Of a DNA stretch of 64,000 bases, positions 12,776 to 37,842 are shown piece by piece. The notes below the pieces were generated by a model. The model did no database searches and was not told the origin of the DNA. It was given only the letters and a program-made list of their open reading frames with translations. A program made the position numbers and the translations under genes. This DNA is from Heliocidaris erythrogramma (lineage: Eukaryota; Echinodermata; Echinoidea; Camarodonta; Echinometridae). The stretch spans positions 42,791,750 to 42,855,749 of the forward strand of contig CM046858.1 of assembly GCA_025617745.1 (NCBI GenBank). Reading direction: 5' to 3'. Position 1 is the first letter of the stretch. Each line of letters starts with the position of its first letter.

Positions 12776-12826
12776 CTTCAGTTGAACTTGTTTGGAAAGA
12801 CCATATGCAGGACCTTGAGTAGCCAT
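12776..12826 (-). CDS. transgelin-like gene, alternative first coding exon A
   Basis: The exon encodes MATQGPAYGLSKQVQLK and is followed by GTGAG on the minus strand. The G-P-A-Y-G-L-S-K-x-V-Q-x-K pattern is the classic transgelin N-terminus (A-N-K/R-G-P-x-Y-G-x-S-R-E-V-Q-x-K-I), so joined to exon 2 (I-E-S-K) it gives a normal transgelin-like start. It is the first exon nearest to exon 2, 7.8 kb away, and the best match to known family members. A TTTTAAA element lies about 160 bases upstream (12985-12991) as a weak TATA candidate. The phase-0 lysine end matches all other first exons. The ATG context is good (A at -3, G at +4). Confidence 0.9.
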
Positions 12827-13508
12827 TGTAACATATAAACCTACAATTAGCACTATAACCTGGAAGATATCCTGAAATACCAGACTGGTCCAAGAGATCC
12901 AGAGACATCCATGTAGCATGCACAGTACAGAATATTGAAAGGGCAAGAACCGTCGTCTAAAGCAAGGCTGATGCATATGGTGGGTTTAAAAGGTTTGGCT
13001 AATTATCGGGCTCATTTATCACGAAGAAATGTTTCTTATCTATGAATTTTGCGACCCTGATTGGTCAGTTGACATTCGACTGGGGGTGGACTGACCATCC
13101 CATGGCTGACCATAATGACGAACAGATAAGACGGATATGAAGATGGATCTATATGGACGGCTATCAGCGGATTCCATCTTTATCTTTTGTGGACAATCAA
13201 AATATATATTGAGAAGCATGCAACCAGCTCATTGTATCATTGATGGATTGAGATGATAACAGATGATAATTATATCAATATTATTTATCTATTTTTATTA
13301 ATTTTTAGTTTTATGTTACGAGAGCTAATTGCCTCATCGGTTATGACTGCTATCCGTAAAGATCATGCGCTATCATATCCTGTAGCAGTTTAATGAAGTT
13401 AATTGGAGAAATTGTATATAAGATTTTTTTTTAAACAAAAGGCCAGTATCATTACTAAAGCAAAACGAGGAAAATACTAGCAAATACAAAGTTAGTGTCA
13501 ATTCTCAC

Positions 13509-13565
13509 CTTCATTTGGCGCTGTCTCAGATCGCCGTAAGAGGGTCCCCTGTTTGCTTCGCACAT
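13509..13565 (-). CDS. transgelin-like gene, alternative first coding exon B
   Basis: The exon reads MCEANRGPSYGDLRQRQMK and is followed by GTGAG. A-N-R-G-P-S-Y-G is the same motif as in vertebrate transgelins, but the following S-R-E-V is replaced by D-L-R-Q-R, and an extra Met-Cys-Glu precedes the motif. It lies 680 bases upstream of exon A, so its transcripts must skip A (which has no acceptor). A consensus TATA box (TATAAAAG) stands at 13847-13854, 280 bases upstream. The frame stays open upstream of this ATG as far as 13961, but no other Met occurs downstream of the TATA box, so I take this ATG as the start. Confidence 0.86.
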
Positions 13566-13846
13566 ATTGATTACGTCTATTTGGTCCCGAATTCCCAGCC
13601 AAAGTCCTCTCAAAGGAGCCTTTAAAATGCTCTTTACTCTATCCTTAAAAACAAGTCGCTTCCAATAATAGAAAAAGACTCCTCTTCCTTCACTCGCACA
13701 CTGTTGCAATGACCAACGTATCTTTACAAATCTGACTTTTTGACAGCGGCGCGTGCGAGATTGGGCACTAAAATAATGCCTCGTTTGAGTCACTGCATTC
13801 TTCGCTTCAAATGGGGCGTCAGTTGCTGGCTTGAGGAGGAATCGCC

Positions 13847-13854
13847 CTTTTATA
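13847..13854 (-). promoter_or_regulatory. TATA box for first exon B
   Basis: On the minus strand the sequence reads TATAAAAG in a GTATAAAAGGGCG context, an excellent metazoan TATA box. It predicts a 5' UTR of about 250 bases in front of exon B. Confidence 0.6.
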
Positions 13855-15714
13855 CAGATCGAGCTCTGTTGGATTCCAAAGTGCCAACAAGGGCAACCTT
13901 CCCGGATTTTTATACCCTCACGACAAAATACGCCAGACTGAGGGAGGTGGGAATATTTCAAAATGTGGGTAGTGTTTTAGGGTTATCCAAAACCAAATGA
14001 CTTTGACAGTGATCTCCTGGTATTCCGATCAACTCCATTTGTCGGTATACCTCATTGTTTTTTGGTAAAGAGGCATTGTTTTGATAGGTGCCTTCACAAA
14101 GAATCGATTTCATGGAGAATTCTAGCTAGGCTTATTAAACAGTGTGGTATTCGTTATTTGACTCTGGCAAAAAATATTTCTGTATGTACTTTTCTAGAAT
14201 TTTCACCTTTCGAAACGCCTTCTCTTTTATTGAACAGTCGGTTTAGTGATATTTGAAACTTATTACCATTTTGCCCCTATTGTAATTTGTTTCCTCTTTT
14301 ATTTTATACTTTCCTTTCAAGTGTCAATAAAACATTCGTCTTTGTATCATTTCCCCTCTCTGTACTGAGGTTACTCTACTGCTTCATAAACTTAGAGATT
14401 AAAGATTAAGGAAAGATCTAGATCCAATTTATCAAGTATGATAATTGAAGTTAATATATTTCATTATTTTGAATCTCAGAAATGTTTCGAATGATACATA
14501 AATGGACTTTATATGCAAAACATTGCATCCGCGTTGAGATGCCTGACCATTTCGCGGGTATTTAATCTACTTCCCAAACTCTATGAATAGAGTATTTTTT
14601 TCGCGGCATGGACACATTTAAAATTAATAATACTTACACCACAATGCTGGGGCAAAACTTGCATATCTAATGTTTTGCGCTTTCGATTTTGGCAATGGTG
14701 ACTGTGCCCATATTTAGTAAAACAAAAAACACATTAAAAATGCATGTTTTGAGATTTGTGGAAGAAGGTTGCATTGCATAGCTGAATTGTTTCGCTTCAA
14801 TCGAGGCTTGTTATTTACATTTAGGCGGTAATAGAATAAAATATAATGAAAACATAAAGATGAATACATTCTATATGAAAGAATAAAAAGAATATGGAGG
14901 GGATAATATACTAGTTGTTTTCAATAAATTGCACGTATTACTTGTCCCCCATCACTATTTGCATTATTTTCTGCAAAATAACTGACTAGATGTATATTAT
15001 GATGCTCTGAAACAATTAATAGACCCAGCATATTTCATTATATATTTACATAAAAACAGTGACAATAGCTGGGAAAAGCTCCCCAAAATCAATAAAGTAA
15101 GATTTAAAAGTAATATATATTTATTTTTGTGCAGTCGGAGAGGTAAAAAGTGATATTTTTGTTATTAATGAAGAATTATACGGAAACATAAAAATCCGCT
15201 TTTAATTATTTTGTATTAATATTGTATTGTCTTGATTTATTCGCATCGGTGCTGATCATATCTCTAGATATTGTTAAGCTCACATAGATAATGTCTCATT
15301 ACAGTACCAGTAATTGAACAAGAAATATTTTCAAGTGTATAATAATCCAAAGACATTTCTGCTTCTCCTTCCATGGTCAGCAATTTGATAGAATTGAGTA
15401 TCTTTGTGGTCTCGGATCATTTTGATGCACAAAGAAAGAAAATGTATTAACAACACAGCAAGGAATCTATATGCTAGATATGCTAGATCTATATCTGGAC
15501 TAACAGGCAGTGTTAATGCGTGTATTGCAAAAATTGACACAATCTTCCCCTTTGAAATTGTTATTTCAAATGTATACATGGTAGTATTTGTTCCATTTTC
15601 CTAAAGTGGTTTGACCATCAGGAGAACCCTATCACTAACCAACACCATGTAAACCTGGTGGAAAAGGTATTAAAATTCCTTTCGAACACTTGCTGAATCG
15701 ACCAATTATCTTAC
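13855..15714. other. interval between first exons B and C
   Basis: AT-rich DNA with no recognised gene or repeat family; it includes the distal promoter area of exon B. Confidence 0.5.
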
Positions 15715-15765
15715 CTTCATCTGATTGTATCGTTGGTCACCCATAGGTGCTGCTTTGGTCGCCAT
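15715..15765 (-). CDS. transgelin-like gene, alternative first coding exon C
   Basis: The exon encodes MATKAAPMGDQRYNQMK before GTAAG. It belongs to the A-A-P-M-G-D class shared with D, E and F, but has Lys instead of Gln at residue 4 and an unrelated last helix turn (Y-N-Q-M-K). Relative to exon A, A-A-P-M-G-D-Q-R aligns with G-P-A-Y-G-L-S-K at the same distance from the splice site, so both classes have 17 residues. A TATAAATA motif is at 16083-16090, about 320 bases upstream. The ATG context ACCATGGCG is near-optimal. Confidence 0.88.
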
Positions 15766-16082
15766 GGTTAATACTAAGTCTTTGTTATCCACAGGAACAG
15801 AAAAAGAAAACTTATAAGAATGTATGTTAAAGGTGGCGCCAGGTAGGAATGGATGAAGAGCAATGGGGATGGATGTCACTAGTTACTCGGTCACCAAGAT
15901 AATGACAACTGCATCTGCTCCGACACACTCTTGGAACGCGTTTGCGGGAGTGGTGGTATGCAATTAGATTTTGGAGGTTTGTCTTTTAGCCCTCGACACC
16001 ACGATATATTATGGGGAAAGACAGCGCGAATGCGGAGAATGTGTCTTCACCATTTCTCAATGCCGCCCTCTGATTGGCTAAA

Positions 16083-16090
16083 TATTTATA
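16083..16090 (-). promoter_or_regulatory. TATA box candidate for first exon C
   Basis: The minus strand reads CTATAAATATTTAGCCAAT, with a TATA core and a CCAAT just downstream. The spacing to the exon C start codon, about 320 bases, is like that of exons B and E. Confidence 0.5.
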
Positions 16091-16653
16091 GAAAGGAGAG
16101 ACAAGTCGGGCAGACGGACGCGCAGCAATTATGAAGTCTTTGACATGTTACATGTGGAACAGGCAAAAGGAATTTCGTTTTAGGACCAATGGGTAAATGT
16201 AACACAGATGTAAAAAAGGTTTAAGTGACATCTCTCGCCATGTATTGATTTCACTACAAGGCTGACATCAATTATTAAATCAATTGAGTGATCTAATAAA
16301 TGACTCACTGGCGGGGAGAAAGACACACTCATAATTTTGTCAAGATAATCTGACACATATGAGACTGATACGTTACAGAAGTATAATAAATATCTTTCTA
16401 AATTATACACTTATTGAGTGTAGGTTTCATTAGTTTTGTTAATATTGTTTGTTTATTCTGCCAATTGCACTATGAAAGGTCATGAACTACAGATGCATCT
16501 GTGGATATATCTCTTTTATATTTAACAAAATGTGTGTTCTTTTTTCACCTTTGATAAGGAGGCTTTAAAAAGGGGTGATCTTTGTCTTTCAGTGTCTTCC
16601 CTTCTAAAAGTCCTCTATTGGCGATTGTTTCTAAACTTGAAATGTTGAGTCCC

Positions 16654-16672
16654 ACCCCCCCCCCCCCCCCCC
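16654..16672. repeat. poly-C tract
   Basis: A run of about 19 C residues, preceded by CCCA. Confidence 0.9.
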
Positions 16673-16835
16673 ATCCTCCTTAAATGTAACTTTAGTTGCA
16701 ATCAATACTTTGAAATCTATCATAATTCAATGTTTGCATTTTTCTGGGGTATTTTTTTTTCTTTTCATTTTGGGTCTGCTGTTTAAAAACATTTTGGGGG
16801 TTGTTGTCACCTTGCTTAATCTATAAACAGTAACC

Positions 16836-17352
16836 CTACACTTACTTTACTTTACTTTGTCTTATTTCCACTTACTTTACTTTATTTTATCTTATTTGCT
16901 CTTGCTTTACTTTACTTTGTCTTATTTCCACTTACTTTACTTTGTCTTATTTCCACTAACTTTACTTTACTTTGTCTTATTTCCACTTACTTTACTTTGT
17001 CTTATTTCCACTTACTTTACTTTACTTTGTCTTACTTCCACTTACTTTACTTTGTCTTATTTCCACTAACTTTACTTTACTTTGTCTTATTTCCACTTAC
17101 TTTACTTTACTTTGTCTTATTTCCACTTACTTTACTTTACTTTGTCTTATTTCCACTTACTTTACTTTACTTTGTCTTACTTCCACTTACTTAACTTTGT
17201 CTTATTTCCACTTACTTTACTTTACTTTGTCTTACTTCCACTTACTTTACTTTGTCTTATTTCCACTTACTTTACTTTACTTTGTCTTATTTCCACTTAC
17301 TTTACTTTACTTTGTCTTACTTCCACTTACTTTACTTTATTTTGTCTTACAT
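16836..17352. repeat. minisatellite, about 25/30-base units
   Basis: Tandem copies of CTTACTTTACTTTGTCTTAT then TTCCA, with or without an extra TTTAC, run for more than 500 bases with few changes (TTATTTCCA or TTACTTCCA; CACTAAC in two units). Mixed 25- and 30-base units keep several frames open, which creates spurious Ser/Thr/Phe/Leu-rich reading frames. Confidence 0.95.
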
Positions 17353-19060
17353 TCTTCTCTATATTCCTTCGTATTTCCTATCAATGACTGTTTCTAAAAT
17401 TCAAAATTCTACCCCCGAAACCTAAGAAAAATTTTAATTTGTTCCCGATTGTATACATTTACATTTCATTTTAATATTTCTATTTTTACTGTTCTTTTTC
17501 TTAAAACGAGTCTTGTCTACTAGTACTATTAATCAATGGAAATTCACATTTGTTTATTCCGTCATTCTTCGCCTTATTAGCATTTTCCATTGATGATTTT
17601 ATTTTCTTAGCTTCAGCTTTTGCCTCCCCAATCCCTCAAAATGCCTAGAGTCCGAATCAGTATTTCAATTTAATCTCATTTAGATAGGGGTTTTTCTCAT
17701 GCCAAATAAGTTTACTCATCACTCACACTACTAAAGACGATTCTTATGTTATCGTGTTTTCACCTTCATCTTCATCTTCTTCATTCTTTTCTTCTTTCCC
17801 CCTTTTCATCTTTCGTTCCTTCTCCTACAAGCGATGGTTTATAAACTTCGAATTTTGACATCCCAGAAAGATAAATCTTGTTTTAATCAATATTTCTAGA
17901 CTTTATTTTTCAGGTTTCATGCTATTAATCTTTTTTTTTTTACTTCTTAAACTTACGTTGTCTTTACTTCTACCTACGTACGTTTTATAGTTTTCTGTCA
18001 CCGGTTGTTTATAGAATCTTACCCCTAAAAAGGGTTCAAATCAACATTTCAAGATAAATTTTAACATGTTCACATTTTTTATTTCATGGTACCTAAAATG
18101 CTGCAATATAAATTGGCCAATAGGTATGCAATTCAAAAAATCTATATTCGGAAATCAGAACAATTGGCATTTCGATTGATATCAACGCTAGTGGATATAA
18201 ATTTTATATGGGCACAACAATGGGTAACAATGCTTTAACTGGTAAGGCGCTACATAAGAAAGAGCTATTATTATTTTTATTATTAAAATGAGTAACGTTA
18301 TTTGCTTAAAAGCGCATAGCATAGATGATAATTACAACCGATAAGTTCTGTAAAACATGTTTTGTGTTACAGCACATAGTATAAACGGTAATTACAACCA
18401 ATCAGTTATGTACGACAACCAAGTCGGGGTGGTAAAACTACAGTTTAGAAATAAAATTTGTTGCACAGCCTATCCCACTGCGGGGACGCACTAATATTGA
18501 ACATGTCTCACAATTCAGTGCACCCTACCAAGATGCAAAGAGCACGTCATCAATTGGACAAACAACGCGTTGTTTGACTATTTTCTCCAATGAATGATTG
18601 TTGAGGACATGGTATAAACTAATTTCAATATATACATTGTAGAAATCACATAAAATTCGATCATTCAAAGCCTATTTTGTAGCCTTGGGGAAATTCAGAC
18701 CGGGAAAAATAGCAATATGAACCCTGTGTAATTTCGTAACCAAACATCAATCTGGAATTCGTGGTTGAAAAAAAAATGCCATTATCGCTACATAGCCTGA
18801 GTGGTACAACATTATTGTACGCTCTTTATTGCATTCATTTGATTTCAGGTGCCGTTTATTCGACATGTTCGACGAGTAAGGTTAGCAAAAAAAAAGAAAA
18901 AATATAAAACAATATAAAACAAAACCGAACGCTAGAAGGGGATGGGGAGGTAAAGTCGAAAATAAACTCAAAGAATCAAATTCAAATTCAAAATTCAAAT
19001 TTCAAAGAAAAACTAAAAATCATAATATTATAATCTAATTCTTCATCGGAGAGGGGTTGG

Positions 19061-19094
<34 letters not shown>

Positions 19095-20525
19095 TAGAGA
19101 TGAGTACAAGTGTATGTCGTCGCCGGAAACAAACACTCATTTGGAATTTAGTTGAAACGCCCCTGGGATTTGCGAAAGCTATTCCAACATCGCGGAGAAT
19201 CTCGATGAGTTTCAGGAGGGGCCAACCATCATGCAATCTTTCGGGGGTTAACAAGACTGTACAAAGGTCAATACAGCTGACAGAAGATCCCAGCTCCATA
19301 GGAGAGCATCAAGCATAGTCATTTTTGGTAGGGGCGACCATTCTCGACTGCCTATTAATAGATAGAACCCTAGTGTGTGCATCCTTCTGTGTATATGTCG
19401 TACCCGAACAAAGAGACACAGTTGTTTTTCGCTGGCATGATCTGCGTAATCAAAATATACCACGCAACAAGAATTTTGGCGCCCTGCTGTTGTGAAAGCA
19501 TTTCTCAACGAAAAATAACCCAGATATCCACTCGTAAATGATCGACAAAATATGAATAATTCGAAATGAAATCTGAACACATCTAAATCATTGATTAACA
19601 ATGACATTTCAAGAATGCAATGATAATGTATCTTTTATAGAGTGGTTGTATATGTAACAGATTAAAAGTCACTGGTAATTGAATGGGTAAATGAGATAGT
19701 AGCTGATTCGTTTCGAGTCATATATTAAGTATATACGTCAATATCTGTAATTCAGTGTGAATAATCCTATTAAAATCCATCACGCAGTATACATTACTTC
19801 ATAAAATAAAACTTTAAAAAAATCGATTAACAGCTCAGTGAAGATGTTATTCGTAATAAGTTATACCTTCCGCGTCACAAACAATCATTCATGTTTAAAA
19901 ATCATCTTATCTATTTAAAAACAATATCAATAGGTGAAACCTCTACATATCAAGTATCGAATATGTACCAAAAACTTTCTTGTATTTCGGATACGCCTTT
20001 CGATATGTGATAATATAAGACCAGTATTTACTGGCGGCTTATGCCACTTCAATGTTTAATCATAACACCAAAGACAGAAGAAAGCTTAATTAAAAATAAA
20101 GAAAGCTGACAGTTGGTACACGAAAATCAATCGTCATAGAAAACACACGAGCAAAGTTTTCTTGAGAAAAATAAGCTGCATATTTTCTCGGTCTTGGTAC
20201 CACAAACCCAAAAGGTAATTAGCTCTCTGGGTATCATCTGCTTCTTGAAATCGCGAGGCTAAGGGTCAGAACATGTTCGGAATCAGCATAAGAATCCGAA
20301 AAGACAATTCGATGATAAATGGTGTACTTCACTGACATTTCAGTGTCACCTGAGAAATGTCAGACATTAATTATCTAATTAGCTAGGAACTAACGTGGAG
20401 ACCATTTCAGACCACTAGGATGTGTCCCTGCAATGCCAAACAAAATTAGCAGCAAGTTCTAAGAATAGTTATGGACAGTTTGAAGACACTCCTATATTTT
20501 GTCCCCAAATTTTCTTTTCCCTTAC
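17353..20525. other. interval between first exons C and D
   Basis: AT-rich intron DNA containing a TA microsatellite at 19063-19092. No exon, SINE or MITE was confidently recognised. Confidence 0.5.
19063..19092. repeat. (TA)n microsatellite
   Basis: A perfect TA run of about 30 bases. Confidence 0.95.
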
Positions 20526-20576
20526 CTTAAGTGCATGGTGGCGCTGATCGCCCATAGGTGCAGCTTGAGTAGCCAT
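20526..20576 (-). CDS. transgelin-like gene, alternative first coding exon D
   Basis: The exon reads MATQAAPMGDQRHHALK before GTAAG. It differs from exon E only in the last helix turn (H-H-A-L-K versus K-H-A-A-K), and the two lie 360 bases apart, so they look like a recent local duplication. A stretch starting TTACC and the antisense of GCACCTATGGG are conserved between them at nucleotide level, with scattered third-position changes (GCTACTCAAGCT versus GCGACACAGGCT). This shows the peptide is kept while silent sites drift, which is evidence for selection on protein. An ATAAAAG motif at 20724-20730 is a likely TATA box. Confidence 0.9.
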
Positions 20577-20723
20577 TTCAATAGCAATGTCTTATCTTCA
20601 ACAAGCGCAAAGTAAACGGGGGACACACTGCGTCCTCCAACAGAACTGTACCAATTGTGTCGTACGGGAAAGACAGGTGGAGGATAGAGCAGGAATGGTA
20701 AGCAAGATACAAAGACAAGGGGT

Positions 20724-20730
20724 CTTTTAT
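20724..20730 (-). promoter_or_regulatory. TATA-like box for first exon D
   Basis: The minus strand reads GCATAAAAGACCCC, about 150 bases upstream of the exon D ATG and still downstream of exon E. This gives exon D its own promoter candidate between two first exons. Confidence 0.45.
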
Positions 20731-20936
20731 GCATTGGAAATACGTATTGCTCCTCACTGCAATTTCCGAAAGAGATAGGCGTTATTGGAGGATGACTTTC
20801 CGTACGTGTTCCAATAGGGAATGCATGTATATTCCCGTGCGCAAAGATGGACGCGCGTTGACCATCGCGAAATACTTTTCACAGTATTTTCATACCCTAT
20901 CAAGTTTTCGGTTGTTTTCCTAACGTTTCAGCTTAC

Positions 20937-20987
20937 CTTTGCAGCGTGCTTACGCTGGTCGCCCATAGGTGCAGCCTGTGTCGCCAT
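20937..20987 (-). CDS. transgelin-like gene, alternative first coding exon E
   Basis: The exon encodes MATQAAPMGDQRKHAAK, then GTAAGC. It is the near twin of exon D. The tail K-H-A-A-K is basic and helix-compatible and would run directly into the I-E-S-K helix of exon 2. Upstream lie a TTTATAAC element (21334-21341) and, about 60 bases further, a perfect SRF-type CArG box (21397-21406), the arrangement found in promoters of smooth-muscle contractile genes including vertebrate transgelin. Muscle expression of this form is therefore inferred. Confidence 0.9.
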
Positions 20988-21333
20988 GTTGATGTGTTTG
21001 AGTGTATCCTAATACCAAGGCTAAATATGTCAATGCAGGAGAGGCGATGATCTACCTTTATCCCTTGTGAGAGTCACAGCAACAGTGATAACTGGGAGTA
21101 AGTTCAAGTAGGACTACTTCAGCAATTACAATTTGTAAATAATTCGTACGCTCCGACGAGTTAGCACGCGCGTGTACTGCTTGATTTCTTTAATTAGAAG
21201 GTAGCAAGCGCGCATAAGAACAGGTCCCCGCAGGTTGCACAGCAACCTCATTGGTCAGTTTTATTCCACCCCCTCTTCTTCCGCGCGTGCTTCATAGACA
21301 TTAGAACGCACGAGAAATGGGCGGATGGGCGGG

Positions 21334-21341
21334 TTATAAAT
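21334..21341 (-). promoter_or_regulatory. weak TATA box for first exon E
   Basis: The minus strand reads ATTTATAACCCGCCC. TATAAC is a weaker match than the boxes of exons B and C, but its position (about 350 bases upstream of the ATG) is similar. Confidence 0.35.
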
Positions 21342-21396
21342 CTAGGGCATCTGGTATCGCGAGGGTAGGAATTCCCACTCGTCAGGAATGCAACGA

Positions 21397-21406
21397 CCTT
21401 TTATGG
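21397..21406. promoter_or_regulatory. CArG box (SRF-site consensus) upstream of first exon E
   Basis: CCTTTTATGG fits CC(A/T)6GG exactly. SRF binding to such sites drives transgelin, calponin and actin genes in vertebrate muscle (established knowledge). I saw no other exact match close to the other first exons. A chance match is possible in AT-rich DNA. Confidence 0.5.
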
Positions 21407-23059
21407 GGTTAACAGAAGATGGCAGATAGTTCCTTCCAGGGAGGGAGGGGATTCCACATTTAGGCATGCGACATTCTACCAGACAGTTGCTCCTTGTAAA
21501 GATATTACCGAAACTCCAATTACCTGACACTCAGCAGAAGTTTTAGTATTGAGACGCATCACTTGATGAAAACTTCAATCAATCAAATAGATCTATTTAA
21601 CAGTGCGACCCCTCTAGCCCTGCCCTCTACCGCTTGTACACACGACACATAAACGCACACACGCATGACACATAAACACACACCCGCACACACACGCATG
21701 CACACTCACACACATATACAATGTTCTTCGTGATACACAATTCCTCCTCCATACCCCCATAATGTTACGAATGACAACGTGCTTAAAAAACACTTATAGA
21801 GTAATCAAATTAAAATTTGATGTACAGCGAAGACGAACATTTAACATAGATATGACCTTTGACCCTTCTTCCTTGTACATGTATATATATCTTGTCGTTT
21901 CAGACACTTTCTTATTAGTTATATATTTTTAGACATCTCATATAAAACGTAACATCATGCTTAGCCAAGAGTTAGGAAACCAGCATGATTCAAATTCTGT
22001 TAAACTGTACTAAGTGGTTTGTTTAACGTTTACTGGAATTCGAACATCTTATCCAAGAGGCTGTCAATATTCACTTGACCTAATTTTCTCACAAGTATAT
22101 GTATGAACACAATTCTTTCTTTATTAAACAAAGAAGGCTGAATTGTTCACTATTTAGAAAGTTAAGAATAAAAGGTTAATCAAGCACTATGTCCATCTAC
22201 TCCTTTTGATAGGCTACCTTAATGGTATTTTTACACTAATTCTAGCAGTTTATGTCTCTACGTTCATGTTCAAAAGAACTGTCAGGAAACATGAATACAG
22301 CATATGAAACATTTGCATTTCTTGTAGTTGTCTTATACATGGCGCCATTAGCCGAATACGTATTCGTATAAACAATGTTGCTATGTTACGATGTAGACAG
22401 ATAATGATAATAAACATTCCAAAATGTGTTGGTCAAGCGTGTTTGCCTTATGAAAGAGAAAAACGATAATACAGTATCAATAGATGCTGATATCCTGTTC
22501 CACCGAGTGTCTGCTTAGGTATATGTCTTCTGTGGAAGAGGTGAATCGTTTATAGATCATTAATGAATTAATGTTGCGCTGTAATGAGTAGTTTTGTGTG
22601 AATAAACTATCGTGTTTTTCATGACCTTAATCTTATGTAGATATGAAAGGATAGTGAAAACTGAGGCAACATAGATGCAGGGTGAAGGTACTCGCAGTGG
22701 GTGCCAGGGTTTCTCACGCGTATCCGATATGTTGTTTTTGGATTAATTTTCAAATGTTGAGGGTGTGAAAGGGCTGGAGACAGGTGTTGCTCGATCTGGT
22801 AAAGGGTGCCACCCCACTCCACTTATCTCTGTTTGATAATAGCTTTCATGATTATCCAATCTTTGTTGAGGATCTTGAAGAATGCTAGAGTTCCATCGCC
22901 ACCAACCCAACGTTCACGTGTTGCTCTATATTAAAGTCCAAATGGGGTTACGGTCCTTAAAAAGACATTATGCAGATAACTACACACCGATTTGTGACCT
23001 TTACAAGGCTACAAACTCAACCGTTGTTATAGAAAATGAAGAGCTTTTAGACGTCTTAC
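21407..23059. other. interval between first exons E and F
   Basis: AT-rich DNA with a short CA-rich patch near 21650-21720. No gene or repeat family was recognised. Confidence 0.5.
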
Positions 23060-23110
23060 CTTCCTTCTGAGGGCACGCATGTCACCCATAGGGGCTGCCT
23101 GGGTCGCCAT
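23060..23110 (-). CDS. transgelin-like gene, alternative first coding exon F
   Basis: The exon reads MATQAAPMGDMRALRRK before GTAAG. It shares ten identical N-terminal residues with D and E but has Met for Gln at residue 11 and a much more basic tail (R-A-L-R-R-K). The tail, the part that meets the CH domain, is the variable half in the whole A-A-P-M-G-D class. A CCAGCTTTTAAGCC segment about 230 bases upstream (TTTTAAG, 23335-23341) is the best TATA candidate, and CCTAAAAGG nearby is one base short of a CArG box. Confidence 0.88.

Positions 23111-23797: not shown

Positions 23798-23800
<3 letters not shown>

Positions 23801-23829
<29 letters not shown>
23801..23829. repeat. (TA)n microsatellite
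   Basis: A perfect TA tract of about 29 bases. Confidence 0.95.
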
Positions 23830-23831
<2 letters not shown>

Positions 23832-23983
23832 GTAAGGAAATAACATATACAACAGCTTTGGCAACTCTCGTGGAAATAAAAACAATGTGAAAGGAAATGA
23901 GAGAATAATGGTTGCGTAACTTAAATCAAAGTTCCCCAGAGCTGTCCTCCCTTTTTGAATTTTTTGCAAAGGTTGAAAAAAAT

Positions 23984-24054: not shown

Positions 24055-24118
24055 GGGTCAGTGGTTTCGGCGACACCAGATTCAATTGACCGACAGATTG
24101 ACAAATCTTCAACCTTAT

Positions 24119-24149
24119 TAATATATATATATATATATGTATATATATA
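24119..24149. repeat. (TA)n microsatellite
   Basis: TA run with one G interruption, just upstream (minus strand) of the tRNA-like locus. Confidence 0.9.
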
Positions 24150-27446: not shown

Positions 27447-27767
27447 CTCTTATTCCGATGTAAGTTTTTGGGATGCAGGGTGGACCAGTACTAACACCGG
27501 GGTTCTCCCTCACCGTTCACGAGCAGCACATATGGGTTCTTAACTTGAAGAGGTGGTCACTCTCCTACCGTAGAAGACTCCGATAACGTCCGTTCCTAGG
27601 GACACAGTGTTTCCTTTTTCACTATAACCTAGCTTGCGTCTATGGAACAGGGGATGGGCACGTTAACACCCATCGAAGGCTTCAGTCATCGGCCTGTGCT
27701 GGATTCAGACCAACGATTGTTGGTTTGACCGGCAGATGTTTTTCCGACTGAGCCAACTCGCCTCTTC
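27447..27767 (-). mobile_element. tRNA-derived SINE
   Basis: On the minus strand the 5' part GGCGAGTTGGCTCAGTCGG contains an A-box (TGGCTCAGTCGG) and, about 45 bases later, a degenerate B-box (GGTCTGAATCC). A unique body of about 230 bases follows. The end is uncertain. The family was not identified. Confidence 0.5.
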
Positions 27768-28501
27768 GATATCGGGCTGCAATGTTGCGATATCGGGCTG
27801 CACATTGTTGCATTGACGTCAACGTCAATGCTCTGTTCTCGTTCGTGTTCTGCATTCTTCTTCTTCTTCTTCTTCTTCTTCCTCTGCAGCCATTTGTTTT
27901 GCATGCAGTTCTTGTTCTCTATAGTCACATTATGTGCATATTATTATTGACGATTTTATAATAGCATTTTATTATTGACGATTTTAGAATAGCATTTTGA
28001 TGTATTTCTGTCTACGTGTACGTTTAAATAAGAAAAAAAAAGAGACTTTTCTCCACTGTCAAAAACCATAAATTTCAGATAATATAATTCGAACTTGATG
28101 TTAGACGTGCACATAGGGTAGCAAATGTGTTACTCATGGAGGGTGCTGGAAAGTTCTATCCGCCTCATGAACGACTGTAACGATGTGCTCCAGTGACAAT
28201 TCCTCTGCGTTCAACTGCTAACACTTGTCGAATTCCCGACTTTAACTCTGGATCCATTTTATACCTAGCCTTCAACCCAGATCGAATATCAGCAACTTGT
28301 CCCATCAATTAACTGATAATTAGACAGTGATTATGTCCTGATAAATTTGTTTTATTCATGACGTAATCAAGGCATTCTGTTTCACATGATACCAAAGAAT
28401 TTTTGACAGTGTCGTGCATGAATGGAATTTAACGGTTTAAAATGAGTGGAGTCAGAACTTGTTGCGCATAATGAAGAATGTGATTGTTTAAATACAAGCA
28501 G

Positions 28502-28503
<2 letters not shown>

Positions 28504-28533
<30 letters not shown>
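28504..28533. repeat. (CA)n microsatellite flanking a MITE
   Basis: A perfect CA run that ends exactly where the element at 28534 begins; a second CA run follows the element from about 28729. Confidence 0.95.
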
Positions 28534-28538
<5 letters not shown>

Positions 28539-28729
28539 ACATGGCTTTACTTCCGAGGACAACTATTGTTCCTCTATTGTTACTCGTCCTCGGACAGTCG
28601 ACGGAATAAGGCATAAATTAATTGTTCGACGTTCGAGGACTATTGTCCGGCTTCCGAGGACCATTGTTGTCATGATTTTTTTCTTGTTCTCTGTCCGAAA
28701 ATGTCCTCGGACATAATGCTAAACAAACG
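28534..28729 (+). mobile_element. MITE in CA microsatellite, copy 1
   Basis: Terminal inverted repeats are CGTTTACATGGCTTTACTTC then CGAGGAC at the left and GTCCTCGGACATAATGCTAA then ACAAACG at the right. GTCCTCGGA-type motifs recur inside. The same 196-base element lies in the opposite orientation at 35733-35930, again between CA/GT tracts. No coding capacity. Confidence 0.8.
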
Positions 28730-30851
28730 CACACACACACACAAAATAAATAAACTTAAAACTAAATCACAGATAAGGACAAACAAAGATAAATGATCTT
28801 TTATGATGTTCCTTTAATCATCATTCAACATGTTTGCAACTTTGAAACGATACTAGAGTCCATAATTAGTCCAAATGTGACTGAAAGACAAAATGAAAAT
28901 TAGGCACTGGGGATTTCAATAGATCTAACTCTCCTAGCTGCGCAATCCGTTTTGACATTTTTGGTTATTACAAGGTTATATTTCGAAGATTCCGAGATCT
29001 ACCACCAAAAATGTGGTGTCCTATTAATTAAGAAATTTCTTTTGAATTATGTTGGTAAATCATGTTATGTTTATTTCACGAGATATTGTTGTGAAAGGCT
29101 GGGTTTCGTTTTATTAGAAAACACATATACATTATTCGTGTACGGTTTGTCACAATCACAATAGTGTTTTTCTTTAGAGAGCAGTGAGTAAAGAAAAGTC
29201 ATTTCCATCTTCGGATAGTGATATAAGATGCAACAGGGTGTTGAAAACATACTAAGTGCTATAATGTAACACGGCCGTGAATGCACTCTTTATTTGATGT
29301 CTCACATAAAATAAAGGAATACGAAAGGCATTATTTCATGACCGTTACAATAAGAAGAAATTCTCACAAAATGAAAAATTCAATGTCATGTTGCATATCC
29401 ATTTAGAAATTTTAGTTGTCTGAAAAGAATTTGCTACTTTAGCTTCACGAATATTCGAAATTGCTGATTGATGGCTACGTGATGGACTGTTTCAGTTTTA
29501 TAATCAGGATTGAAAGATATCTACAGCTTGTAAGCCGAATCCATTCTCAGTTAAGACAATAAATCCTCAAATTGTTTATACTCATGATTACAGCATGAAT
29601 TATATAAACAAGATGGCAAATAAACTACAGACATGAGACACCAATGGTAGCGCACAGTTTAGATGTTGGAACGGCAGTGTGTGAAATGAAGAAAAGCATA
29701 ATACCACCGACCTCTTTAAGAAGTGATATTTTAAGTTTGTATCTCTAATTCATATCTTAGGCACTCAGAAACACAAATAGAGGAAATTTAAAGGACCTAT
29801 GGAAGGTGAAGGTGCATCTTTTCTCGATTCCTTTTACGGCACTGACTATATTTCAGGAACTTGATCTGGACACCCCTTCTTGATGGCGCCAACGGGCTAT
29901 AGCAGAATGATATTCAAGCATAGCATGCCTCTCTGTAACGTAAGTACATGTGGATCCAAGAGGGGCGGGGGAGGGTGATTAGGGGTCGTACTATGAACTG
30001 ATATTTTTCATTGTATTCATATGGTGCTGTGTAGTGGACTCCTGAAGATCATGGCGATAACATGGGCTACATTATAATCCATATCTTAATCGAATTAGCC
30101 CGTTGCTCCCTCAACCCAATGTTACTCGCGCGCATCATCACTGGAAATGTAATTGTGTCTTCCCTGCCGGCCCTTGGGTTAAACACGATTTGAGTTTTAT
30201 TGCGTTGATAATCATCTACCTGCAATAACACTGCAAATTGCCCCATCCACAGACAATGAATTATTCCATGATAAAGCAATGCTGACTGACTATCTGCCCC
30301 GTTGAGTATAAAATTTGATTATCTAGCACTTAACTGATAAAACATTTTAACCAATGATGCATTTTGTCTAGTTCAACATGAATAATTCAAAATAAAATTA
30401 AATAACCAACAAAAAAATTTGGGCGTGGAAAAGAAATCCCGTATATCTGATGTACTTAGTTTTCAAAAGATAAGTTCACCCCCTAAAGAGTCGCTTACCA
30501 ATACAATAGTACACTCCAAATACTGAACTTTAAATCTGGACTGGACACTACCTACCCATAATACTAACCTTAAACCTAGCCTAAAACCCCAATCCCAACC
30601 CTACATCTTTGACGAAATAAAACAGCCAGGAGCAATTTTCGCAGAAGCATTTCGTACTATAGCACGGTGGAAAGACAAAAAAAAAAAACACGATAGTTCG
30701 TACTAAATTGAAAGGCGTATATCAATGCAACAAAACAAGATGTAGACGTACATGTACAGACAGATGTTATTATCAATGTTATGATGAATTATTGAAATGA
30801 TGGGATGATAAAGTCATGGATGGTTGATGTTTTATATCTTCATGTTCTTAC

Positions 30852-30920
30852 CTTTGCGTGAATCGCCCGCCACATTCCGAGTAGCGGGCCGCGGTTTGCC
30901 CTTTGTGTTTGGTAAGACAT
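30852..30920 (-). CDS. transgelin-like gene, alternative first coding exon H (divergent)
   Basis: The exon starts MSYQTQRANRGPLLGMW and ends R-A-I-H-A-K before GTAAG. A-N-R-G-P marks it as the transgelin-type class, but the following Tyr-Gly is Leu-Leu-Gly and a six-residue extension precedes the motif, giving 23 residues. The end R-A-I-H-A-K resembles R-A-I-K-I-K of exon G, so H and G may be sisters. It was recognised by motif, phase-0 lysine end, consensus donor and GCC-ATG-T start context, not by an open frame. A TTATAA element about 330 bases upstream (31252-31257) is a weak TATA candidate. It is the least certain of the eight, because its motif match is weaker. Confidence 0.76.
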
Positions 30921-32597
30921 GGCGACAGATGACTAAGAAACAAGGAATTAACGAAATTACAAGCTCCAGTATCAAACGTTCCTGCAAATTGCTGCACTTA
31001 TTAGCCACGATATATCACCACTCTCTCCTGAAATTAATATTCTGATTTATTTCCAATATAGTGTGGTGATTAATCCTTAAAATGTTCGCCCGGAAAAAAT
31101 CCGATGGATTTGACGAAACACTGGGACGGGAGAAAAGTGATCAAAGAATGTGGAGAGATAATGATTATCAGCTGTGACCGATTCGAGGAAAGTTAAATGA
31201 TTTGGTTCTACTCCTACCAGTCCCTGCCTTGGCCAGGTCCCGGTCCAAATATTATAAGAGGTGTTAATTACACCCCCTCCATTATTACGTACACATCTTC
31301 ATTACAGATAGGTAGCGATATTGCTTACACCGGAGGCAGGGTTGTCTGATATTGTCTTAATGAAATCAACATGTTGATGGTGTGAAATTTTAGTCGTAGG
31401 CAAGAGTCCGAAAAGAATTTCAGGGGGTTGGTTACGTGTTGGACGAGGTGTATGCAACTACAGCACACAAATTTCTACTTCCATGCCCAGAGATAAGCCT
31501 CACAATTATATTTAGTGGGTAAGAAGTAACATAAAATTGTGATTTAGGTCAATCTTGACATTTGTATTTCACAAATAAATCCGTTTTCCCCACAGGAGTG
31601 TGGCTGTGTGTTTATGTGTGTGTGGGGGGGGGGGGGAGGCTTTATGTTAGCGCTTTTTATCATATAACTTCGGTTAGTATTATGCTTTCGATTCATAGGT
31701 TTGTAGCATAATAGCAATATCTTCCTTTTAAAAAAAATCAGGGAAAGAGAGCATGGTTTTGTTTAGAATGGCATTACACCAGGCCCAAAATACCCAAAGT
31801 GTATTGGATTCATGTCAGTGGTTGATGATTAACTAGATTAAAATTGTCAGACCAAGTGCGATCAATAGCGTCTATCGTATTTTTGAAGGGGCAAGTAAAC
31901 TGGTGAGCAACATTTATTTTCTTGATAAAACAAAATTAAAATAACAAAAACATCATCCTACCATAATGGATGTACAAAAGGGAAGTGTTTAGGTGGTTGG
32001 CAAATGCATACGTGCAGCGACTTTCAAGGTTTGGAATCCATTTAACATCTTTATTATGTTCTGGGGTTTTGCATATATCTGAAAAGCTATCTCCAGCAAG
32101 GGAGGTAGGGGACTATCTTTTGACTAAATTTTAGTATGATGACATATGACAAATGGGTAAGTGTCATTTTATCGTAAAAGTAATGACATGTTTGAACTTG
32201 TATCCAGAGAGGTCTTTTTTTTACACGGGATAACAAGGAAGTACTTAAAGATAAGTGTCAGTATAGTCAGGTAAATTGCATTGTGAAAGGTAGTTTGTGG
32301 GTTTTTTATTTATAGGCTATGTTCTAAAATTTACATAATTAAGTGACACAGTCTCACTGATAATCGTATACAATGGAAAACACTGCACACATGGGTATAT
32401 ACACTACATAATTATATAGGTGACATCTAATATTTGCTCCAAAGTTTTAATTTTTTTCTCAAACGATATTCGTAAGTTCAGTGGCAGTTATTTTCAGATA
32501 TTTAAAAAAAATCATAATCATAATATATTTACCAGTTGGGGAAGGATATAACTATGCATTTTGGTGTATTTCAAAAGACCATTAATTGATGGTTATT

Positions 32598-32642
32598 ATT
32601 ATTATTATTGAAAGATTATTATTATTATTATTATTATTATTA
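32598..32642. repeat. (ATT)n microsatellite
   Basis: TTA/ATT trinucleotide repeat, broken once by GAAAG. Confidence 0.9.
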
Positions 32643-33600
32643 TTTCTTTTAATGCAATATCCTCTCACAAAAGCTTGAGTTTTTACCTACCAAAGAATAT
32701 CAGCCGTTATTTTTGCATCTTTCATTTTCTCATCATCTTTTAAAGGCTATTCAAAACAACTTCCTGGAATTACAGAATTAAGAAAAAGAAAAAAAAGTTT
32801 CATCAATCATAAAACTTTCTCTCTCATATCGCAGTGCTCAGTATGTTCTCTGCATCAATGATGAAAATTGTATGAAGGGATAAAACACTTTTGTGACTAT
32901 ATTGACGCCTAGAAGTTCATACCCTTGTTCAAATAACCCATACTGTATTACCGCGTCCAGCATGTTGATTAGAAATAATCCTCTCTTGAATTTACTTGAG
33001 TAATTGCTAGTTTTATAGGGTAAACGGTATGGATTTCGTTAATTTGTATTTCTCTGTACAGCTAGTAGGTCCAAGACAAAAGGAGTAATTATTTCTTTTC
33101 AGATAGGTTTGAAAATTATTGATGGTGTTTCAGCGATATAAAAAGCAATGATATGCTATTAAAACACACTATTCTTCGTTGGGAATTCCCAATTTTCCTT
33201 TATCTGCGATCTCTAAAAAAAGATTGCAGTATGTTTTCAAGTCATTTCAACAACATGGTTCATTCCTTAATGAGCGAATCATTAGTTAAAGGATGAAATT
33301 AATTCGTGACATACCTAGTCCTGATGAATACTAAAATATGTATTTTCTCGAAAATACAGGCGTTCCATATCGAAAGTTTTGAGGGGAGAGATTCCCCAAG
33401 GGGTGTCCAGAGATTTGAAAATTAATGGAATTCAATATTACCTATAAAGGAGTCATGGGAGTGGATACCACAGCATCATAATATGTGTGAGTTTGAAGAC
33501 CAGTAGCGATAACTGGGGCAAACATATTTGATGTATACCTTATACTGGTTATGACATGACCGCGAAACATTTCACCGTGTGTGGGCTTATTTCCATTATG

Positions 33601-34254
33601 TTGTTTGGTTCATGCGGTGTATGTCCGCACATAGTATGTCCAATTTGGTCTCACAGCGTACACTTGTTGAGCAGACGCTCATTAGAATTCGAGCGGTCAC
33701 TGGGGTGTGGGTGAGGGTGTGCGTGCCTTACCATAAGTGGAAGAATGCCATTCTGTCTCCCTGAAATGCGATACGTTAGACGAATGAGTTCACACATACC
33801 GCTCTTGGGAGGGCATCTCGGATCTGAAAGCAAAGCGCTTCGTACAAGAGAGATTTGATTATGTTATCCATCGCCTGCATCTTCATTAGCATCAACCAAA
33901 GTTTTGTGAAAAAGGGTATAAGTTATGTTGTTTGGTTCGTGCGGTGCATGTCCGCACAGAGTATGTCCAATTTGGTAACACAGCGTACACTTGTTGAGCA
34001 GACGCTCAGTAGAATTCGAGCGGTCACTGGGGTGTGGGTGAGGGTGTGCGTGCCTTACCATAAGAGGAAGAATGCCATTCTGTCTCCCTGAAATGCGATA
34101 CGTTAGACGGATGTGTTCACACATACCACTCTTGAGGGCATCTCGGATCTGAAAGCAAAGCGCGTCGTACAAAAGAGATTTGATTATGTTATCCATCCCT
34201 GCATCTTCATTAGCATCAACCAAACTTTTGTGAAAAAGGGTAAAAGTTATGTTC
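33601..34254. repeat. 327-base tandem duplication
   Basis: The block beginning TTGTTTGGTTCATGCGGTGT at 33601 recurs at 33928 with about 95 percent identity by eye, and the second copy ends near 34254. A minus-strand open frame of 147 codons runs across both, giving a repeated peptide with L-V-D-A-N-E-D-A-G and H-P-H-P-H-P motifs. I could not relate this peptide to a known family, so coding status is undecided. Confidence 0.85.
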
Positions 34255-34635
34255 TTTTGACCAGAACCCAACAATTGCTGTGAAAGTAGGCTCTTCTTGT
34301 TATACATCCAAAGACTCGATCATGGCATGGCTCATGGGTTCATACTCTACCGTTTCGTCCATTTTAATGAAACGTATAGAATAAAAACCCTTCAAATTTA
34401 GGCATTGGCTTTTACATTAAAGTCTATTTTTTCATACAGAATCTGAATAACAATGGAATAATCAACATGATCAAGGAGCAATAAAGAATACTAGTACATG
34501 ATAAGCGATTCCGGATATAAAGTTATAAAATCCGGATCATACTCTGAGTACTGAGTTCTTTGCATTAAAAAAAATATAAACATGAATTTTGATATATTGC
34601 TTCATGATGTTTTGAACAATTTTATGCAGTCTAAT

Positions 34636-34789
34636 GGGGTGTTACAAGAAAGTTGCGATTGATTGCAAGTTGCAACTGATCGGTGCTGACCAATCAAAAT
34701 CATTGTTGCAAGCGCATCTTCTTGAATGGGCAGACCCTGAACCATTCAGAATGGTTGTTCTAATTTGCTTTACAATTTGCAACACCCCA
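34636..34789. mobile_element. MITE-like element with GGGGTGTTRCAA ends
   Basis: GGGGTGTTACAAGAAAGTTG at the left and TTTACAATTTGCAACACCCC at the right form an imperfect inverted repeat around about 120 bases, including a GACCAATCA core like those in the other MITEs here. Confidence 0.5.
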
Positions 34790-35732
34790 TAAGATAGTTA
34801 AAGTGAATCGTAGACCTAAACATACAGTGTCTGATTGCGCTCTCATGAAACTGTATAGAAATCTATAGGATCTCCGAAGCTGCACATGTGGGCAAGACCA
34901 AGGTATGTCCATACGTTACCAAGTATTTGGGATTGTACTACAGAACTGTCAACAACAAAAAATGCAGAATGTCATTTTATTTGATGTTTTGTCTGATCCA
35001 CACTGTAGGAGGCCTATCAGCTTGATACAGTCATCAGATATACTAGAAATCTTAGATGTGGTCGGTACAGTATATCGAATAGCTCGGACTTGGCAAAGGA
35101 GCAGTTTCTAACGTGAGAGTATAGTAAAGAAGAACTTAAAGTAAAGAACTTTCCCCAAAGCTGAGCCAGTGGTGTATTCAGCATAGCGTGGTGAAGATGT
35201 TCACCAACCCCCCCCCCCCCCACGGCAGCCCAATTAATGTTTATTAATATATGGATACGCCACCATTCCAATACTCACACTCCCATGCACACATGCACTT
35301 GCTATGTACAGGGGGTGTGTTAGACATTTAGTTGTCGGCTATAATAATTGTACCTAATCACTGAAACGCTATTACAAAGACTTTTAAGAAATCAACTCGA
35401 GGCAATTCCAATACTCCGATTTATTACCTATAGAAATTATGTTCACGTAATGTTCGAACGTGTCAATAGGTGACGCACAAGGCCATTGGAATTGCCTAAT
35501 GGGTAAATTTCTTTGCAAGCGTGTTCTCAATAGTTATCAGCTATTATAATCTTAGTTCATAATAATTATGAGGGCGATCGTATAGCTATCTGTCTAAATT
35601 TCCATTCTCTCTCCCTCTGTCTTAACCTCTCTTTTGATAAGTCGGTTTACATGCCTAAAGTAAATTTTAATGTTCATTTTCTCTACAAGAGTTTGCTTGT
35701 GTGGGCGCGTGTGTGTGCGTGTGTGTGTGTGT

Positions 35733-35930
35733 GCGTTTGTTTAGCATTATGTCCGAGGACATTTTCGGACAGAGAACAAAAAAAAAATCATGACAACAAT
35801 GGTCCTCGGAAGCCGGACAATAGTCCTCGAACGTCGAACAATGAATTTATGCCTTATTCCGTCGACTGTCCGAGGACGAGTAACAATAGAGGAACAATAG
35901 TTGTCCTCGGAAGTAAAGCCATGTAAACGT
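35733..35930 (-). mobile_element. MITE in GT microsatellite, copy 2 (inverted)
   Basis: The reverse complement of copy 1 at 28534-28729 with only a few differences. It lies between a GT run (about 35710-35732) and another (about 35929-35957). The two copies point in opposite directions and enclose first exon H. Confidence 0.8.
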
Positions 35931-36603
35931 GTGTGCGTGTGTGTGTGTGTGTGTGTGGGGCGGGGGCTTTATTTAGCGCTTTTGCGCAAGGAGCAAGGAG
36001 ATGAATTACTAGTAATTCTGCGTGCACATTCTCTTGAGCTATATGACATGCTACTTTATAGAGCAGGCAAATAAACAAATATATCAACACTTTCAGGTTT
36101 TTTAACAATTCTTTCATTCAGGAAGTCATGCACGGCAGCGGGTGTTATTGCTAAACTTGCTCTTGCTTATTTGGTTTTTCCCCTTTATGGTTGCTTAATG
36201 TGTTTAACATGCGAGCCTGGAAATACTGCTGATTGATTTAGCATGGAGTGGCCCTAACCATGACATTTACACTGCAACGCCAACAAGGGGACTCAGTGTG
36301 TGTACAGACGTTCATATATCATCATACACATTAGACAGCTGTCTAGTTTGGCTTGTACTAGACACATGAATAATGAACAAAAAGAAAACATCATGTGGAA
36401 AAAAATTCTCTAAATATTTCTATACGATATTTATTCTATTTTCACATCTTCATACGAAAGCAAAACAGAAAAACAAAAACAACAATAAAAGCTTATTCAA
36501 CTTTACGCTGTTTTAGTGTTTTGCACATAAAGTGTTTATTTGGGAATGGGTAAATATTTGTTTTAACGATATATACCAAATCTAGTAATGTGATATCAGG
36601 GTT

Positions 36604-36736
36604 AGCGTTTCATCAAGCGTTTTGTCAGTGATTTCTACCGACAGCTGTTACAAGCTACTGAAATCCTTGCATCTGATTGGTTGAGAGTAAATTTGTCAGT
36701 AAAAATCACTGACAAGACACTTGATGAAACGCTCCC
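36604..36736 (+). mobile_element. MITE family 1, copy c
   Basis: Inverted ends are GCGTTTCATCAAGCGTTTTG and GACACTTGATGAAACGCTCC. The core TACAAGCTACTGAAATCCTT then GCATCTGATTGGTTGAGAGT matches copies b and d. Confidence 0.8.
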
Positions 36737-37779
36737 CCAGATATCATGCAGAGACTTTTAATATTTTTTGGTTCATTATTCACTTTAAGTGTTCATTAAT
36801 TATCGTAATTATGACTTTAGAAATTATGAATATATTATTTTGTGCTCCCAGTATTTGTATGAGCTTTCCAGTTTAGCTAGCGCCAGACCCATTTATGAGA
36901 ACAGCGGACACTGATATACATGTGAGGGTTATAGGTAGAATCCCATATTGATGTGATATCTATCCTACTTTCATATCTTCGTACGAAAGCAAATGAATAA
37001 GAACCATCCAACAATATAAAAATGTCCTTTTACTGTTGTATACGATTGTATACAATTTTTTTTCTTTGAATTCTTGGATACGTATCAATATAAAAAAATC
37101 ATGTTTGTATATAATGAGCCAATTCATAATGCAAAAAAAAACCTTTTCAAGTGGTAACGTTATGCATAATTAAGAGTACAAAGCGTGAATGGGTCGTCGT
37201 AATAGTCATGAGGAAGAAGTATGAATGTTAGTCTTTTCATACCATTATCATTGCAAGCTATAATTTGATCCGTAGATGATAGGGCCTATGCACTGAAGGC
37301 CTATTGGGTATGAATGTTTGTTAATACATCCAGGGTAGTGAGTAAGAAGCGAGACTGTCATCTTAGCTCAACTCTACGAACCCTGTTCAGTGCCAAGATA
37401 GTATAATGGTCGAGTCACGAACGAGTTGAACCATACTAAGGTCGATGGTAAGAATCGGGGCTTGCTCGTATCAGGGTCAAGATCGTAATGTCCAAATATC
37501 TCTCCCTAAAACCTGTCAGATCATTCTAGATCCAGAGCATGCAACAATTATGACAGCTCAGTGATGAAAAGGGAGAAACATTTATCGAGGCCTCACATTC
37601 TCGCGGCCCGGAACCTTGAACAGGACATACTTCTAGTTCTACATTGGTCGGGTTACATTGCTTTATAACTAAACCCTACATGTTCGGAGACGGTCACTGT
37701 CACGCGACACTGCCAAGACAGGTCAAAGGTCAAGTTAAAGATCTTATAATTGGCACAAATAATGAGATGATGCACTTAC

Positions 37780-37842
37780 CTTGATTTTAATGGCACGTGA
37801 AAGTCCATACGAGGGGCCCTGGTTAGCCATACACATCGCCAT
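37780..37842 (-). CDS. transgelin-like gene, alternative first coding exon G (most distal)
   Basis: The exon reads MAMCMANQGPSYGLSR then A-I-K-I-K before GTAAG. A-N-Q-G-P-S-Y-G-L-S-R is very close to vertebrate transgelin. Three in-frame ATGs (37842, 37836, 37830) are possible; I chose the first because it has a strong context (G at -3, G at +4) and an in-frame TAG lies 18 bases further upstream. The shortest form would start M-A-N-Q, like vertebrate proteins. It lies 33 kb from exon 2. A CTATTTTTGG sequence (one base from a CArG box) lies within 30 bases upstream. Confidence 0.9.

Follow-up and report, generated by a model that had tools for sequence, protein, structure and literature searches.

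An apparent array of eight alternative first coding exons in a sea urchin transgelin gene

Introduction

UGT1, GCNT2 and the clustered protocadherins are described as having tandem variable first exons ahead of common exons, and in UGT1 each variable exon is preceded by its own promoter (PMC1885805, PMC3325998). Plectin (PLEC) is described as having a dozen alternative first exons, which give the protein short, differing N-termini and are followed by a common exon 2 (PMC8468861). Clusters of variable first exons are thus already known from UGT1, the protocadherins and plectin, and what is new here is the presence of one in the transgelin family. The cluster lies in a 64-kb stretch of the genome of the sea urchin Heliocidaris erythrogramma, referred to as the window (C6:42791750-42855749). 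With high probability, the locus is one sea urchin myophilin/transgelin gene with eight variable first exons, or leaders, spread over 25 kb. Each leader most likely has its own promoter and is spliced to a single exon 2, which is followed by exon 3a or 3b and then by exons 4 and 5.

In smooth muscle and in motile cells, the behaviour of actin is governed by transgelin and calponin, which vertebrates diversify by means of separate genes. Vertebrate transgelin genes are not known to have such a first-exon array. The accessible part of a review of the transgelin/calponin family (PMC10285543) contains neither "alternative splic" nor "sea urchin" and mentions no exon array of this type. In addition, a literature survey covering titles and the starts of abstracts returned no report of an echinoderm transgelin exon array. 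Public Lytechinus and Diadema gene models already carry isoform numbers; isoforms of the gene are therefore partly in the databases, and are not described in print as far as this literature shows.

The leader exons

The first-pass annotation had proposed eight minus-strand exons, each with an ATG, 17-23 codons, a phase-0 lysine end and a consensus donor, and all of this was borne out. The exons are 51-69 nt long and the donors follow the pattern GT[AG]AG. The eight leaders, all on the minus strand, are as follows.

12776 to 12826, minus strand: leader 12826, alternative first coding exon, MATQGPAYGLSKQVQLK, donor GTGAGT, transgelin-type N-terminus
13509 to 13565, minus strand: leader 13565, alternative first coding exon, MCEANRGPSYGDLRQRQMK, donor GTGAGA
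15715 to 15765, minus strand: leader 15765, alternative first coding exon, MATKAAPMGDQRYNQMK, donor GTAAGA
20526 to 20576, minus strand: leader 20576, alternative first coding exon, MATQAAPMGDQRHHALK, donor GTAAGG, with the silent-site pattern described below
20937 to 20987, minus strand: leader 20987, alternative first coding exon, MATQAAPMGDQRKHAAK, donor GTAAGC
23060 to 23110, minus strand: leader 23110, alternative first coding exon, MATQAAPMGDMRALRRK, donor GTAAGA
30852 to 30920, minus strand: leader 30920, alternative first coding exon, MSYQTQRANRGPLLGMWRAIHAK, donor GTAAGA, shared by the two assembled copies of the locus
37780 to 37842, minus strand: leader 37842, alternative first coding exon, MAMCMANQGPSYGLSRAIKIK, donor GTAAGT, near the general transgelin N-terminus

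A strict scan for this anatomy (ATG, 14-26 open codons, a lysine codon and GT[AG]AG) was made over 144 kb, that is, the window and 40 kb on either side. On the minus strand it returned precisely the eight leader donor sites, and on the plus strand a single site (window position 5304), which is a chance match. A first-order Markov null model of the 64-kb window gave a mean of 0.33 sites and a maximum of 2 in 60 runs; with eight minus-strand sites against that mean, the scan rules out chance open frames. Both assembled copies of the locus carry the eight leaders with ATG, frame and donor kept; the second differs by one amino-acid change, in leader 12826 (MAHQ...).

The array is one of related exons with donors of a single phase. 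The motif MAT[QK]AAPMGD[QM]R is common to leaders 15765, 20576, 20987 and 23110, and the closest resemblance within the array is between the adjacent leaders 20576 and 20987 (15/17). Leader 30920 has at most nine residues in common with any other leader and is only weakly similar to the rest of the array. Over the first 12 codons of the four AAPMGD leaders, the six pairwise comparisons gave a synonymous divergence (pS) of 0.46-1.02 and a non-synonymous divergence (pN) of 0-0.12, that is, nearly all changes are silent. DNA identity among these exons reaches 0.80 in the first 36 nt, against 0.35 in the sequence upstream and 0.26 within the intron. Because silent changes dominate and identity drops outside of the coding part, the four are read as old coding duplicates under purifying selection. 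Their exact codon pattern for AAPMGD has eight matches in the 1.06-Gb genome, which are these four exons in the one copy of the locus and again in the other, and the reversed control has none. The codon pattern of the other leader class gave three matches, all at the locus or its copy, and is not informative as its controls gave three and five.

The common exons and the exon 3 pair

The leaders are followed on the minus strand by a single set of exons, the last two of which lie just to the left of the window.

4853 to 4968, minus strand: common exon 2, 116 nt, entered in phase 0 and left in phase 2, first part of the CH domain
2760 to 2829, minus strand: exon 3a, 70 nt, entered in phase 2 and left in phase 0, LINTFKPGAVNKVENATKNTFAK
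1570 to 1636, minus strand: exon 3b, 67 nt, entered in phase 2 and left in phase 0, LVNIFCSGAVKKCEASTAVFKQ, mutually exclusive with 3a
C6:42791105-42790968, minus strand: exon 4, just left of the window
C6:42790119-42789925, minus strand: exon 5, just left of the window, carries the stop codon

Exon 2 had been put forward as the only downstream acceptor exon of the right phase. This stands for the window, where it is the only phase-0 acceptor seen, but not beyond it, since exons 4 and 5 also accept phase 0. A genome-wide search, in which all 32 candidates were scored, located exon 2 in the two C6 copies of the locus and nowhere else, so that each copy has one exon 2 and one downstream exon set common to all leaders. 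Consistent with this, a tblastn search of the 144 kb, with four related proteins as queries, found one exon 2 and no stray copies of exon 2 or of exons 3-5 among the leaders. Its sole match amid the leader region outside of the leaders themselves (E 0.3, 23% identity, containing a stop) is spurious. As the locus has a single exon 2 and, second copy aside, the genome search found no other, tandem separate genes are very unlikely.

Frame tests were run with one leader (20987), and all eight leaders are in phase 0. The form leader-2-3a-4-5 is open for 189 codons and leader-2-3b-4-5 for 188. When both third exons are included a stop follows within a few codons, and when both are skipped the frame shifts; it follows that 3a and 3b are mutually exclusive. 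They are homologous neighbours of the same phase, and each is used alone in proteins of other species. A 3a-like segment is present in P0001 (20/23) and, more weakly, in the sea cucumber P0024 (13/23) and P0020 (14/23). Segments like 3b are present in P0004 and P0007, with 18 residues matched in each versus 17 for exon 3' of the downstream half described below, a margin of one residue. Exons 4-5 of P0004 side with exons 4-5 of this gene (94.5% to the first half versus 88.2% to the second). This exon 3 alternative is absent from the first-pass annotation, as is the downstream half, and the gene is richer than described there.

In three spliced forms, the Pfam CH domain (PF00307) scored 64.8, 57.1 and 62.2 bits against a cut-off of 26, and the calponin repeat (PF00402) was found as a single stretch at 38.3-42.7 bits against a cut-off of 21.1. 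One N-terminal CH domain and one C-terminal calponin (CLIK) repeat are the marks of the transgelin/calponin family. As judged from its sequence, the product is a myophilin/transgelin of about 188 amino acids, with predicted actin binding. More distant exons of the family lie at C7:43981369-43983851 and C7:25183752-25183958, and match segments of P0004 at 61%, 39% and 46% identity; these presumably belong to other family genes.

Leaders in the proteins of other species

A first protein search gave 14 proteins, ten of them close relatives, which comprise four from named sea urchins (P0001, P0004, P0007 and P0010) and six that carry no species label. A second search, with a seven-sequence alignment as query, gave 1038 matches, of which 120 were listed, and 35 sequences were compared overall. 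The protein database holds one representative per 90% cluster, which could hide variants that differ in the leader only. P0001 represents 10 clustered sequences, and its label names isoforms X1 and X4.

Four of the eight leader types were found joined to exon 2. Leader 13565 is identical (19/19) in Lytechinus variegatus P0001, leader 15765 matches Lytechinus pictus P0004 at 16/17, leader 20987 matches the unlabelled P0002 and P0003 at 17/17, and leader 23110 matches the unlabelled P0005 at 15/17. As each of these types is joined to exon 2 elsewhere, the four were probably distinct before the species parted. Other matches are partial. P0006 and P0008 start at an inner methionine and match the last 10 residues of leader 20987 (10/10); P0009 matches leader 23110 at 13/17 and the Diadema protein P0007 matches leader 20987 at 13/17, each one residue ahead of the next-best leader. 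Leader 37842 has 12 residues in common with the transgelin-like P0012 and P0013 (no species label), and the unrelated start of P0010 looks like translated intron.

Beyond the sea urchins, the leaders of sea star, brittle star, crinoid and acorn worm proteins are roughly of the form MAxxGxxYG and most like leaders 12826 and 37842; the sea cucumber leader differs from this type. The AAPMGD class was seen here only in sea urchins and in close relatives without species label. We infer that a leader of the MAxxGxxYG type may be ancestral, the AAPMGD class having arisen in sea urchins.

These observations also bear on the idea that the leaders are relics of whole genes that arose by tandem duplication and have since been stripped of all other exons, with only one or two still functional. 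Tandem duplication predicts that neighbours should be the most alike, as 20576 and 20987 are. Against this idea, ATG, frame and donor are intact in all eight leaders of either copy, silent changes dominate in four and four types are matched in other species. Together with the lack of stray exon 2 or exon 3-5 sequence amid the leaders (tblastn, 144 kb), this makes the relic explanation highly improbable.

Promoters or splicing upstream of the leaders

A leader could be selected by its own promoter. Alternatively, one or a few non-coding first exons common to the leaders could lie upstream, with the leaders as internal exons that exclude one another, and selection would then be made by splicing. 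Vertebrate transgelin genes have a non-coding exon 1. This precedent would fit selection by splicing, as would the mutually exclusive exon 3 pair that the gene already uses. Internal exons need acceptors, and these were scored with a generic acceptor matrix, by which the seven true acceptors of the gene score 0.4 to 7.2. The best acceptor upstream of the leaders exceeded the 95% null in 0/8 cases within 60 or 150 nt, and within 300 nt one (30920) reached 0.95, that is, upstream scores are no better than those of random places. Leader 23110 has no scorable AG in the 60 nt upstream. Acceptor-like AGs do occur at -33 of leader 12826 and at -12 of leader 30920, and because the true acceptor of 3a itself scores only 0.4, weak acceptors or spliced 5' untranslated regions could have gone unseen. 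The earlier claim that no leader has an upstream acceptor is therefore upheld only statistically, with the AGs of 12826 and 30920 as reservations.

The sequence ahead of the leaders points toward promoters. The GC content of the 350 nt upstream is above the median for 8/8 leaders (percentiles 0.68-0.95). A sense CCAAT[CG][AG] motif is present at -238 to -315 in 4/8 leaders, an arrangement matched by 0/1500 random eight-place sets. Both features argue against shared non-coding first exons, an arrangement that we regard as unlikely.

Two familiar promoter elements were also considered. Vertebrate SM22 is under SRF/CArG control; here, CArG is upstream of 1/8 leaders (p 0.375) and such control is not supported. 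TATA boxes, at 4/8 leaders, are below background. Separate promoters are nevertheless favoured. The first-pass proposal of alternative promoters or first exons in place of tandem genes is supported and seems mostly right: the single exon 2 makes tandem genes very unlikely and leader-exon 2 joins are available for 4/8 types. For the promoters the support is indirect: raised GC (8/8) and CCAAT (4/8) speak in favour and TATA and CArG do not.

In the favoured explanation, that of separate promoters, promoter choice in different cells or at different stages would set the N-terminal leader, and the leader donor would be spliced to the single exon 2. The CH domain would then be completed by 3a or 3b, followed by exons 4 and 5, with exon 3 splicing acting as a second, independent choice. 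We infer eight working promoters, cell-specific use and any functional difference between leaders. In a structure model of P0001, residues 1-21 have a predicted local distance difference test score (pLDDT) below 50, and ten-residue blocks of the CH domain score 58-92. Because the leader is predicted to be a disordered tail ahead of the CH fold, leaders would be more apt to modulate partners, location or N-terminal processing than to alter the fold itself.

Several points weigh against this explanation. Leader types 12826, 20576, 30920 and 37842 were not seen among the 35 proteins compared, and 2/4 of the matched types occur only in sequences without species label. The joins come from the proteins of other animals, and in Heliocidaris erythrogramma the leaders are known from the genome only. 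The named proteins are public gene models, not known here as sequenced cDNAs, and the unlabelled ones sit on contigs, the longest of 1.5-1.9 kb, that are presumably cDNA. The 0.4 score of the true 3a acceptor lies within noise, which makes the acceptor test weak. The CCAAT motif was picked after viewing the sequence and 4/8 leaders lack it; in a plain 600-nt test, 0/9 motif classes were significant, CArG and TATA included. Finally, the structure was modelled with low confidence, from 7 sequences and with a mean pLDDT of 64.8.

A second 3' half downstream

About 4.3 kb downstream of exon 5 lies a second 3' half of the gene, which has the same phases as the first and a stop codon.

C6:42785608-42782465: second 3' half, to the left of the window, comprising exons 3', 4' and 5' with intact frame and splice sites
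C6:42785608-42785542: exon 3', phases as in the first half

The two halves differ mostly at silent sites, with pS of 0.46 and 0.30 and pN of 0.027 and 0.056 for exons 4/4' and 5/5', respectively. No second exon 2 was found ahead of the downstream half by permissive tblastn (best E 1.4), and the strict scan found no leader for it in the 4.3 kb upstream. The form leader-2-3'-4'-5' is open for 188 codons.

The downstream half therefore has intact exons and splice sites with neither exon 2 nor leader in the 4.3 kb ahead of it, as would be expected if some leaders served only 3'-4'-5' and the locus consisted of two overlapping transcription units. However, a direct leader-3' join is impossible, since every leader ends in phase 0 whereas exon 3' has to be entered in phase 2, and a leader joined to 3b, which has the same phase as 3', meets an immediate stop. 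A transcript of the downstream half must thus include exon 2, and would therefore be an alternative splicing product of the same gene. None of the 35 proteins compared clearly shows such a product, and two overlapping units are quite improbable.

Two protein models begin at the third exon, the Lytechinus pictus "partial" model P0016 and the 137-residue Diadema setosum model P0017, as if their annotation had likewise met no exon 2. Exons 4-5 of P0016 are clearly nearer the second half (95.5% versus 92.7% to the first), and in a tree of exons 4-5 it groups with the downstream unit with modest support (83/81). The affinities of P0017 are mixed. Its third-exon segment is nearer 3' (19 residues versus 16 for 3b). 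Over exons 4-5, however, it comes closer to the first half (89.1% versus 86.4%), and these exons group in the tree with Diadema P0007, away from the downstream unit. Gene conversion or a separate duplication would explain this. The tree gave no answer on whether P0002, P0005, P0006 and P0009 use the downstream half.

If exon 2 is shared with the downstream half, the latter may be an alternative terminal cassette. As a tentative suggestion, the gene might have the form of an hourglass, in which eight leaders converge on exon 2 and diverge again into 3a-4-5, 3b-4-5 or 3'-4'-5'. The cassette would then be a kept alternative terminal unit and not a broken gene, common at least to Lytechinus pictus and perhaps to Diadema, and up to 8 x 3 = 24 actin-binding proteins would be possible from about 47 kb.

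Copies and repeats at the locus

The second copy of the locus is at C6:43005750-43125749 (about C6:43.03 Mb), with 93.7-99.7% identity over the ten longest blocks. About 0.5 kb past its exon 5 the assembly has a gap of 500 N. Part of it is also present inverted (99.4% over 19.7 kb). A third, partial copy (C11:20021688-20035331) ends at a 500-N gap. Because of these gaps and the level of identity, the extra copies are probably misplaced, unpurged haplotype contigs, although a recent, real duplication of the locus could also account for them. Between the two C6 copies, exons differ at 2/1030 sites and the 400-nt flanks at 55/10371, differences too few to prove selection.

Several repeats lie in the window. 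A 241-nt inverted pair (28503-28743 and 35720-35960; 98% complementary, 6976 nt apart) flanks leader 30920 and perhaps represents two copies of a mobile element. A minisatellite at 16839-17349, between leaders 15765 and 20576, is built from a 30-nt unit repeated about 18 times, with higher-order periods of 55 and 85 nt. A dispersed repeat at 11607-12142 is present in at least 37 places elsewhere in the genome (91-97% identity), a 327-nt unit at 33596-34257 is tandemly duplicated (2 copies, 94% matches), and a 151-nt tandem repeat of 4.6 copies occupies 63294-63982 at the window end.

Comparison with known systems

Here, one invertebrate gene seems to diversify transgelin by means of promoters and exon choice. 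Some leaders are kept type by type across species, which opens the role of the short tail before the CH domain to direct study. In addition, the locus offers a compact example of the growth of a first-exon array, from an apparently ancestral MAxxGPSYG leader to the AAPMGD class.

In having a CH domain and a calponin repeat, the gene resembles the TAGLN, Mp20 and myophilin genes, and MAxxGPxYG leaders are also found in the transgelins of other animals (sea star, crinoid, acorn worm, P0012 and P0013). In UGT1, GCNT2 and the protocadherins, the variable exon codes for a large functional domain, whereas the variable part of the urchin gene is only the 17-23 residues before the CH domain. Plectin is similar in that short, variable N-termini are spliced into a common exon 2. 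The actin-binding CH region of plectin begins with this exon 2. However, plectin is a giant cytolinker of another family, whereas the urchin leaders are mostly related to each other and to the general transgelin leader, and the urchin gene has a second choice at exon 3.

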